A DNA stretch of 64,000 nt from Hufsiella arboris (GTDB lineage: Bacteria; Bacteroidota; Bacteroidia; Sphingobacteriales; Sphingobacteriaceae), in NCBI RefSeq assembly GCF_009834875.1, contig NZ_WVHT01000006.1:248001-312000 (forward strand). Direction: 5' to 3'. Below the pieces are notes generated by a model. The model was given only the letters and a program-made list of their open reading frames with translations, ran no database searches and was not told the origin of the DNA. Below, in pieces: positions 42,315-59,107 of the stretch (positions are counted from its first letter, which is position 1; every line of letters starts with the position of its first letter). Both the position numbers and the translations under genes were made by a program.

Positions 42315-43049
42315 ATGAACGATAAAAAAACTCCAGAACTGTACATAGTTGGAGCGGGACCTGGTGATCCCGACCTAATTACGGTAAAAGGCTATAAGAT
42401 ATTACAACAGGCAAAAGTTATTCTTTATGACAATTTGGCCAATAAATCGTTATTAGACCTTGCCCCAGCTGATTGCGAAAAAATTTATGTTGGAAAACAT
42501 CCGTATGGTAGTTACACGCCGCAGGAAGATATTCACGAGTTAATTAAAACCAAAGCTTTCGAAAAAGGCCAGGTTGTTCGTTTAAAAGGCGGCGACCCCT
42601 TCATTTTCGGCCGTGGCTTTGAAGAAGTGCTGTTTGCACGAAAGCATGGCATAAAAACACAATTTATTCCGGGCATTACCAGTATGCAAACAGCCGGCAT
42701 GAATGATATACCGCTTACTCATCGCGCTTTAAGTGAGGGAATGTGGATTGTAACCGGTACGAAAAAAGATGGTTCTTTGTCTGCGGATTTAGCACTTGCT
42801 ATGCAGAGTAATACGACTGTAATTATCTACATGGGGATGAAAAAAGCCGGATACATCGCACAGGCCTACATTGCGAACGGAAAAGGCGAAACGCCGGTAG
42901 CAATTATCCAGCATGCTTCGTTACCGAATCAAAAAGCGGCGAAAGGCCTCGTGAAAGATTTGGAAACGATTATTGGCGAAAATCACTTAACCCACCCAGC
43001 GATCATTATTATCGGACAAGTAGTTAATATTCCAACCGATTCTGTGTAA
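42315..43049 (+). CDS. cobA: Uroporphyrinogen-III C-methyltransferase
   Basis: SAM-dependent bis-methylation of uroporphyrinogen III to precorrin-2, first step to sirohaem for sulfite or nitrite reductase (EC 2.1.1.107). It opens with LYIVGAGPGDPDLITVKGYKIL and has the conserved VVRLKGGDPFIFGRGFEE and FIPGITSMQTAGMNDIPLTHR. At 244 residues it is a single-domain CobA. A second, more divergent copy is at 55497-56291. The 293 nt upstream hold two small dyads (CCACT/AGTGG; CAAGAC/GTCTTG near 42247-42305) and a 19-codon ORF without cysteine codons; I see nothing like the attenuator of the second copy. Confidence 0.93.
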   Translation: MNDKKTPELYIVGAGPGDPDLITVKGYKILQQAKVILYDNLANKSLLDLAPADCEKIYVGKHPYGSYTPQEDIHELIKTKAFEKGQVVRLKGGDPFIFGRGFEEVLFARKHGIKTQFIPGITSMQTAGMNDIPLTHRALSEGMWIVTGTKKDGSLSADLALAMQSNTTVIIYMGMKKAGYIAQAYIANGKGETPVAIIQHASLPNQKAAKGLVKDLETIIGENHLTHPAIIIIGQVVNIPTDSV

Positions 43050-55496: not shown

Positions 55497-56291
55497 TTAT
55501 AACGCTATTTCCTGTGCTTCGTAAAACTCTCTAATCGGCTGAAACAATGGATGTAATCCTACTACGGCGCCAATAACGATCAAAGCGGGCGATCCAATAT
55601 TTTTTTCTTCGACGGCTTCAGCAATAGTCTTTATATTACCAACAACAACCTTTTCATCCTTTGTTGAGCCGTGCTGAATGACTGCCACCGGCATGCGGCT
55701 TCTGCCCTCTTTTTGATAAATTCCGACGATTTCAGCTACCTTTTCGATACCAAGCATAATAACAACCGTTGCATCGGTCTTTGCAGCTGTATATAAATCC
55801 GGCGATAAATTCCCTTTAGAATCAGTAGCTGAAATAATCCATAGGCTATCACTCATACCACGATGTGTAACCGGAACTCCCTGAAGCCCGGGAACTGAAA
55901 CAGCGCTGGAAATGCCGGGGATAATTTCGGTTTGAATGCTGTAAGATGCTGCATTATCAAGTTCTTCATATCCACGGCCGAAAACGAACAGATCGCCTGT
56001 TTTTAACCGGACAACATGGCCGAAATTTAAAGCGTAGTCGATGATAAGCTTGTTAACAGTTTCCTGCGAATAGGTATCGTCATCAACCGGGCTGCCGACA
56101 AATATTTTAGTTGCATGCTCAGGTGCATAATCCAATAAACTCTTATCAATATTCGCGTCGTATAAAATTACATCTGCGGATTTAATAGCATTGATGCCTT
56201 TCAAACTGATTAGTTCCGGATCTCCCGGCCCTGCGCCAACTAATGTAATCTTCGGCTCTTTTACTGTAGTTGATTGTGCTGATAAAATCAT
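55497..56291 (-). CDS. cobA: Divergent uroporphyrinogen-III C-methyltransferase paralogue
   Basis: A 264-residue tetrapyrrole methylase. The opening ITLVGAGPGDPELISLKGINAI is conventional and the VPVTHRG and FVFGRGYEE motifs are retained, but the SAM-site loop reads RLKTGDLFVFGRG where the first copy (42315-43049) has RLKGGDPFIFGRG. It has a 12-residue N-terminal and a C-terminal extension. Presumably it makes precorrin-2 for sirohaem in sulfite reduction. Its leader carries a cysteine-codon uORF and terminator that suggest control by cysteine supply, in line with a dedicated sulfur-assimilation copy. Enzymatic competence of the altered loop is unproven. Confidence 0.85.
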   Translation of the reverse strand: MILSAQSTTVKEPKITLVGAGPGDPELISLKGINAIKSADVILYDANIDKSLLDYAPEHATKIFVGSPVDDDTYSQETVNKLIIDYALNFGHVVRLKTGDLFVFGRGYEELDNAASYSIQTEIIPGISSAVSVPGLQGVPVTHRGMSDSLWIISATDSKGNLSPDLYTAAKTDATVVIMLGIEKVAEIVGIYQKEGRSRMPVAVIQHGSTKDEKVVVGNIKTIAEAVEEKNIGSPALIVIGAVVGLHPLFQPIREFYEAQEIAL

Positions 56292-56312: not shown

Positions 56313-56345
56313 AAAAAAGCCTCTTCTGTAGCAGAAGAGGCTTTT
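56313..56345 (-). terminator. Intrinsic terminator (attenuator) before the second cobA
   Basis: A 14-bp stem (56345-56332 with 56328-56315, core GCCTCTTCTG/CAGAAGAGGC), 3-nt loop and T6 on the minus strand, 21 nt upstream of the cobA ATG. The 5' arm holds CTCTTCT, which can pair instead with AGAAGAG (56370-56364) directly after the uORF stop codon. Confidence 0.85.
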
Positions 56346-56370
56346 AAACTATGATTAATTATACTCTTCT

Positions 56371-56448
56371 TTATAAACGATACCGCGAACAACAAGTATT
56401 GCACATAATCATGTAATTGAACTTGCCGTGTGTTTTATTTGATACCAT
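56371..56448 (-). CDS. Cysteine-rich leader peptide, 25 residues
   Basis: Short ORF from ATG 56448 to TAA 56373-56371; its C-terminal part reads MIMCNTCCSRYRL. Three cysteine codons (56403-56401, 56394-56392, 56391-56389), two of them adjacent, fall 5 to 10 codons before the stop. The ATG is 4 nt after a TATATTTG box, so the message is probably leaderless; internal ATGs at 56412 and 56406 are alternatives. A ribosome halted at the TGT-TGT pair would leave the post-stop AGAAGAG strand free, while a ribosome at the stop would cover it. I infer a regulatory rather than a functional peptide. Confidence 0.6.
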   Translation of the reverse strand: MVSNKTHGKFNYMIMCNTCCSRYRL

Positions 56449-56452
56449 GTCA

Positions 56453-56483
56453 CAAATATATAAAATCTATCAACTTAATAGAT
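56453..56483 (-). promoter_or_regulatory. Promoter and palindrome of the cobA leader
   Basis: Minus-strand TATATTTG (56460-56453) is an exact -7 box; no TTG occurs at -33. Instead the palindrome ATCTAT-N7-ATAGAT (56465-56483) covers about -17 to -35 relative to the start. It resembles the dyads at 25158-25204, so it may bind a related regulator. Confidence 0.5.
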
Positions 56484-58935: not shown

Positions 58936-58989
58936 AAACATTATTTGGCGATTAAACCAATCTATCAATAACCCGTAAAAAGGTCTTTG

Positions 58990-59098
58990 ATTTATAAAGA
59001 AGTGGCGAGAGACAGGCTCTATGACCCACTGGCAACCCTGAAGTCTGACTTCAGAAGGTGCCAATTCCTTTCCCGGAATTTTTAGGGAAGCTATAAAT
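58990..59098 (+). promoter_or_regulatory. SAM riboswitch (SAM-I type) of metY
   Basis: S-adenosylmethionine sensor. Visible elements are the GGCGAGAGACAGGC core, ATGACCCACTGGCAACC, hairpin P3 (CTGAAGT/ACTTCAG, about 59038-59054), AGGTGCCAATTCC, and a P4 (AATTCC/GGAATT). The ends pair as P1, ATTTATA (58990-58996) with TATAAAT (59092-59098). The order and spacing match the SAM-I class. No strong terminator follows, so its expression platform is unclear; it may act through the uORF and structures downstream. The controlled genes metY, metX and hom make methionine, as expected. Confidence 0.88.
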
Positions 59099-59107
59099 TT
59101 TAAAACC

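Follow-up and report, generated by a model that had tools for sequence, protein, structure and literature searches.

A probable cysteine-responsive transcription attenuator before a cobA gene of Hufsiella arboris, with related leaders in Bacteroidota

Organization of the cobA leader

The stretch of Hufsiella arboris DNA analysed here (64 kb, hereafter the window) carries two copies of cobA, both of which encode TP_methylase proteins (PF00590). One copy is located at 42315-43049, and the other is preceded by a leader in which a promoter box, a short upstream ORF (uORF) with three Cys codons, a putative antiterminator strand and an intrinsic terminator follow one another (Table 1). The promoter box, the 25-codon ORF, the AGAAGAG strand after its stop codon and the 14-bp hairpin with its T6 tract had already been located in a first-pass annotation made from the sequence, and every coordinate proved correct; the sequence also agrees with its statement that AGAAGAG is the exact complement of CTCTTCT in the 5' arm of the terminator.

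Table 1. The second cobA gene of the window and the elements of its leader
Feature	Position	Strand	Basis
Leader of the second cobA, 148 nt	56460-56313	minus	sequence
-7 box of the Bacteroidota primary sigma factor (TAnnTTTG), TATATTTG	56460-56453	minus	sequence; consensus from PMC7366714
TGAC between the TATATTTG box and the uORF ATG		minus	sequence
uORF of 25 codons, MVSNKTHGKFNYMIMCNTCCSRYRL and stop, probably leaderless (TTTG-N4-ATG)	56448-56371	minus	sequence
Cys codon 16 of the uORF (TGC)	56403-56401	minus	sequence
Tandem Cys codons 19 and 20 of the uORF (TGT TGT), presumed stall site	56394-56389	minus	sequence; spacing statistics
AGAAGAG, predicted antiterminator 5' strand, directly 3' of the uORF TAA	56370-56364	minus	7-bp complement of 56339-56333
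CTCTTCT, predicted antiterminator 3' strand, common to the terminator 5' arm	56339-56333	minus	sequence
Terminator hairpin of 14 bp, AAAAGCCTCTTCTG-CTA-CAGAAGAGGCTTTT, loop CTA	56345-56315	minus	sequence and fold
T6 tract of the terminator	56318-56313	minus	sequence
cobA, uroporphyrinogen-III C-methyltransferase, the putatively regulated gene	55497-56291	minus	TP_methylase PF00590, Pfam E 4.6e-43
Inverted repeat AATCTA-TTAAGTTGA-TAGATT (AATCTA-N9-TAGATT), candidate Rrf2-type operator over the -33 region/promoter	56484-56464	minus	

The elements of the leader are closely packed. Only 4 nt separate TTTG of the promoter box from the ATG of the uORF, the first and second TGT codons lie 24 nt and 21 nt from the antiterminator strand, and an 18-nt spacer parts AGAAGAG from the terminator hairpin. 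The 148-nt leader folds at -38.9 kcal/mol as against -24.5 kcal/mol in shuffled sequences (z -4.4; 0 of 200 shuffles), and the terminator hairpin accounts for about -20 kcal/mol (-19.8 to -20.2). The consensus terminator scanner run on the window did not call this terminator, presumably because the stem takes up four of the six T residues; the sequence together with the fold leaves no doubt about it. When all promoter-proximal short ORFs of the window were considered, namely those whose start codon is no more than 14 nt from a TAnnTTTG box (n=21), the cobA uORF was the only one followed by a terminator (1/21). The first-pass annotation had also raised the possibility of a cobA promoter downstream of the terminator, and the 21 nt that separate the terminator from the gene contain no further TAnnTTTG box. 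No Rfam family scored above its gathering threshold at the cobA leader, which places it outside the known Rfam leaders and riboswitches. Elsewhere in the window, a SAM riboswitch (RF00162, 78 bits; 58989-59099, plus strand) stands before the O-acetylhomoserine sulfhydrylase / homoserine acetyltransferase genes; a riboswitch on the methionine branch and a leader peptide on the cysteine branch are thus found 2.5 kb apart.

Conservation of the leader in relatives

The search for CobA covered the host family and a set of named genomes. The complete arrangement of box, Cys uORF, antiterminator and terminator was found at ten cobA genes from two other genera (L007, L008, L009, L014, L016 and L222-L226), which together with the window give a set of 11 leaders from three genera. 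Genes for CobA located inside a sulfite reductase operon have no leader of their own, and at five other cobA genes of the host family (L011, L012, L013, L015 and L020) the promoter and an operator-like repeat are present with no attenuator. The TAnnTTTG box is found at the matching place in all 11 leaders, and the gap between TTTG and the start codon is exactly 4 nt in 10 of them. Because of this short gap and the location of the box at -7 (PMC7366714), from which the start site was placed, the uORF is probably leaderless or nearly so.

The encoded peptides differ from leader to leader (for example MKTRNQHKAVFNNNVCMCVQLMCYAHC, MRPTNLYMNCMCNLSTS and MQKINLHMNITCYGIKKCMCFLFPA, each followed by a stop codon), and Cys codons are present in 11 of 11, with 25 among the 276 codons where shuffles give 6.2 ± 2.4; two leaders (L008 and L226) have a single Cys codon. 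Met makes up 11.6% of the residues. Cys codons conserved in an otherwise divergent peptide are what the first-pass annotation had predicted for related leaders, and its further expectation of covarying stems was borne out for the antiterminator helix across the same set.

In every one of the 11 leaders, a strand that starts at most 6 nt past the uORF stop pairs with the terminator 5' arm. When the core antiterminator helix is aligned in register, 97% of the cells are paired, as against 38-62% in slid registers, and four of its six pairs have changed on both sides, a result that none of 500 shuffles comes near (AGAAGAG/CTCTTCT, GGGGAGG/CCTCCCC and GTGAAGG/CCTTCAT are examples). The support from covariation is good but not overwhelming, the 11 sequences from three genera being few and related. 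Among the leaders, predicted stabilities are -7 to -19 kcal/mol for antiterminator hairpins and -14 to -28 kcal/mol for terminators. The window antiterminator is among the weakest (-7.2 as against -20.2 kcal/mol for its terminator) and could therefore act only kinetically; as the antiterminator would form first during transcription, such a role is plausible. A strong regulatory response in Hufsiella arboris should not be taken for granted.

Cysteine leaders before sulfite reductase operons

A scan of the CobA loci also turned up poly-Cys uORFs followed by a terminator ahead of operons for sulfite reductase or PAPS reductase. They occur in Pedobacter caeni and in Bacteroidota MAGs, among them one from the Crocinitomicaceae and one from the Flavobacteriales; an example is MFKSIFFMFNQVIDQCCCCCCCMCFAQVDQGNRFR followed by a stop codon. 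The upstream regions of 134 Bacteroidota sulfite reductase genes were collected, and a Cys-cluster uORF followed by a terminator was present in 47 of them, as against 5.7 ± 2.1 (maximum 11 in 100 runs) when the sequence upstream of each terminator was randomised. With at least three Cys within seven codons, the count is 30 regions and the shuffled value 0.9. Clusters of Met are the sole other class with comparable enrichment (27 regions as against 5.4 in shuffles; 17 as against 0.5 for at least three Met within seven codons), and Met stands beside Cys in several of these leaders, as in MMCC and MCMCC. At 12 loci, two poly-Cys uORF/terminator units are arranged in tandem before a sulfite reductase or cysH operon. 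A DNA pattern search for poly-Cys codons with T6 over the phylum returned noise only.

The genes that follow the Cys leaders (sulfite reductase, sirohaem and PAPS reductase genes) lead to cysteine. The sulfite reductase operon of Hufsiella arboris itself (G000:C45:228504-230579 and downstream), which encodes sulfite reductase, a precorrin-2 dehydrogenase-like protein and an Rrf2 regulator, has no Cys leader, whereas many relatives have one at this place, which would leave cobA as the gene of the pathway under attenuator control.

Position of the antiterminator relative to the Cys codons

When the sequence beyond the last Cys codon is matched against the terminator 5' arm, the best complement scores 15.7 over 76 leaders; when arms are swapped among the leaders the score falls to 12.6 ± 0.3 (maximum 13.5 in 200 swaps), and shuffled segments give 11.6. 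For the 62 of these 76 leaders with a clear antiterminator, the median distance to its start is 16 nt, counted from the first base of the last Cys codon, with an interquartile range of 14-21 and a standard deviation of 5.0 as against 13.4 for random placement; relative to the stop codon its position is scattered (standard deviation 12.2). Since the footprint of a bacterial ribosome extends about 12-13 nt downstream, counted from the first base of its A-site codon, the antiterminator begins about where a ribosome stalled at Cys would end, irrespective of the position of the uORF stop. In the window the stop codon adjoins AGAAGAG, so that a ribosome at the stop would cover this strand. Spacing between Cys codons and antiterminator is the strongest support for a model of ribosome stalling.

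A candidate Rrf2-type operator

A TCTA-N9-TAGA repeat is exact in 8 of the 11 attenuated cobA leaders and has one mismatch in the other three, and is always located 5-8 nt before the -7 box. Weaker forms of the repeat occur before sulfite reductase, and a pattern search of the Hufsiella arboris genome found operator-like repeats before a TauE/SafE-like permease gene (G000:C23:86841-86870) and before susC. The regulator gene of the sulfite reductase operon in the same genome belongs to the Rrf2 family (PF02082), and an Rrf2 homologue is encoded within 6 kb at 20 of 80 CobA loci. At two loci, L014 (726-1202) and L016, the cobA leader has an Rrf2 regulator gene (E 2.3e-38) as its immediate upstream neighbour, the L016 protein being assigned by a C-terminus near-identical to that of L014; the L014 protein is 61% identical over 90 residues to the Rrf2 regulator of the Hufsiella arboris sulfite reductase operon. 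CymR, a regulator of cysteine metabolism in Firmicutes, is also a member of the Rrf2 family. A second layer of control at the promoter, through an Rrf2-type operator, is likely, and the Rrf2 regulator may bind the TCTA-N9-TAGA repeat.

Proposed mechanism and alternative explanations

We interpret the cobA leader as a ribosome-mediated transcription attenuator responsive to charged tRNA-Cys, with a probability of roughly 0.86. It has a 5'-proximal uORF, cognate codons in a divergent peptide, an intrinsic terminator, an antiterminator that shares a strand with it, and a suitable geometry. From these parts, with the order, spacing, conservation and covariation described above, the following course of events may be proposed. 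Transcription would start at or a few nucleotides from the uORF ATG, and a ribosome would load at once on the leaderless uORF. When cysteine is ample, the ribosome would pass the Cys codons, reach the stop codon and cover AGAAGAG, whereupon the 14-bp terminator would form and RNA polymerase would stop after about 136 nt. When cysteine is scarce, the ribosome would stall at TGC or at the TGT-TGT pair with its leading edge short of AGAAGAG, and the free strand could pair with the emerging CTCTTCT, delaying the terminator and allowing cobA to be transcribed. More cobA expression would mean more sirohaem for sulfite reductase and hence more cysteine synthesis, and the Rrf2-type regulator would probably add control at the promoter. 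The first-pass annotation had proposed a ribosome-mediated cysteine attenuator at this place; the comparisons support this core and extend the same logic to sulfite reductase in many families, with the amendments that the uORF is probably leaderless, that an antiterminator of only 7 bp must win kinetically, that an Rrf2-type layer is likely and that the signal may include Met.

The last of these amendments touches on an alternative in which the leaders sense sulfur amino acids in general, by stalling at both Met and Cys codons or as a read-out of sulfur starvation. The enrichment of Met clusters next to Cys before sulfite reductase and the Met content of the cobA uORFs favour it; however, the tight spacing of the antiterminator was computed relative to Cys codons, the TGT pair of the window uORF is closer to the antiterminator than are its Met codons 13 and 15, and internal ATGs may stem from a recurring ATGTGT context or serve reinitiation. 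We regard this broader sensor as unlikely. It is very unlikely that the same uORF acts through Rho or through translation of cobA rather than through an intrinsic terminator. Mycobacterial poly-Cys uORFs are predicted before cys operons without terminators (PMC1262725), translation attenuation by them is cited in PMC13236596, and the uORFs found before susC (see below) also have no terminator, but at cobA a strong intrinsic terminator is combined with a matched, covarying antiterminator.

The hairpin might, in principle, simply end the transcript of the upstream AI-2E transporter gene (57659-56523), which shares its strand and has its end about 180 nt upstream, and the uORF would then be a product of chance. 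However, the -7 box and the uORF stand between that gene and the hairpin, and neither the Cys enrichment nor the covariation is in keeping with this explanation. Moreover, the unit stays with cobA when the upstream gene varies, from AI-2E in the window to an Rrf2 regulator (L014, L016), an unrelated protein (L007, L008, L222-L226) or a gene on the opposite strand (L009), and we therefore rejected it as highly improbable. A switch set by a specific nascent chain, as in arrest peptides, or by a ligand bound to the RNA, as in riboswitches, also seems hardly credible. The uORF RNA can indeed adopt a fold that places the Cys codons in a stem, but in most leaders this stem is no more stable than in shuffles (z -1.1 in the window), the peptides diverge except for Cys, and the Rfam search was negative. 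A search of the 11 cobA leaders for a conserved pause hairpin within the uORF found none.

Relation to known attenuators

Ribosome-mediated attenuation is a classical mechanism, known from the trp, his and leu types of Proteobacteria. The cobA leader resembles these in its short leader ORF with codons for the end product and in a mutually exclusive antiterminator and intrinsic terminator, between which the position of the ribosome would decide. It differs from them in that it would read Cys for sirohaem synthesis and sulfite reduction, in a uORF that is probably leaderless, and in an antiterminator that is a copy of the terminator 3' arm beside the stop codon, with no conserved 1:2 pause hairpin seen. 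Bacteroidota have a sigma factor of their own and make little use of Shine-Dalgarno sequences. To our knowledge, leader-peptide attenuation is hardly documented in the phylum, and the control of its sulfate assimilation is poorly known. Canestrari et al. in 2020 are said to have shown leaderless poly-Cys attenuators of mycobacteria. The cobA leader shares with the mycobacterial uORFs the runs of Cys codons, control of cysteine biosynthesis and, probably, a leaderless or near-leaderless start; unlike them (they are translational or Rho-dependent), it has a terminator whose antiterminator covaries.

The predicted motif uORFC-8-2, found exclusively before cysS in Rhodobacterales (PMC8632094), also combines a short uORF that carries tandem Cys codons with an intrinsic terminator downstream. 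The cobA leader is set apart from it, on the basis of the gene and the published description, by phylum, gene (cobA as against cysteinyl-tRNA synthetase) and structure, and was not assigned to that motif. Within Bacteroidota, leader-peptide attenuation before amino acid biosynthesis operons has been suggested for Flavobacterium psychrophilum, where the main text describes no cysteine leader (PMC9723704). No report of a cysteine leader in Bacteroidota was found in the open-access literature. A cysteine attenuator in this phylum thus appears undescribed in that literature, in line with what the first-pass annotation had supposed. A compact, Cys-coded and probably leaderless attenuator present in many families, and in tandem in several, offers a directly testable mechanism, and its interest lies more in the spread through the phylum and the link to sulfatases than in the single cobA site.

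Poly-Cys leaders before susC-sulfatase loci

A susC gene of Hufsiella arboris, followed by susD and two sulfatase genes, is preceded by the uORF MSKRIRRFFKANKMDTLAQINRATYSKCCRCWCCCRM (G000:C45:401008-401121), which ends in CCRCWCCCRM before its stop codon and has a TCTA-N9-TAGA repeat upstream. A protein search with this second poly-Cys peptide gave no true homologues, and the downstream SusC was used instead. Among 28 homologous susC genes of the host family, 13 have a uORF with a C-terminal Cys cluster and 10 of these the exact CCC-stop end (shuffles give 0.19 and 0.00, respectively), and the exact operator repeat occurs at 12; sulfatases are encoded in 18 of the 20 neighbourhoods fetched. 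No T-tract terminator was seen in the poly-Cys susC leaders, so that their mechanism must differ from that of the cobA attenuator.

We consider it somewhat better than an even chance that these leaders belong to a cysteine regulon that extends across the Bacteroidota and is based on poly-Cys leader peptides. Such a regulon would comprise attenuators of the terminator type, frequently arranged in tandem, before sulfite reductase, sirohaem and sulfate operons, and a second class of uORFs with CCC-stop or RMRMC-type ends before SusCD-sulfatase loci that scavenge sulfate. Both would share the Rrf2-type TCTA-N9-TAGA operator, and a single cysteine signal acting at promoter and leader would link sulfur assimilation to the use of sulfated glycans; the CCC-stop leaders in particular would tie cysteine status to sulfated-polysaccharide use. 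In the leaders of the sulfatase-linked susC genes (L347-L363), a conserved element, CAATTGGCGTTG, occurs together with a GC-rich hairpin that has no T-tract, possibly representing another form of RNA control.
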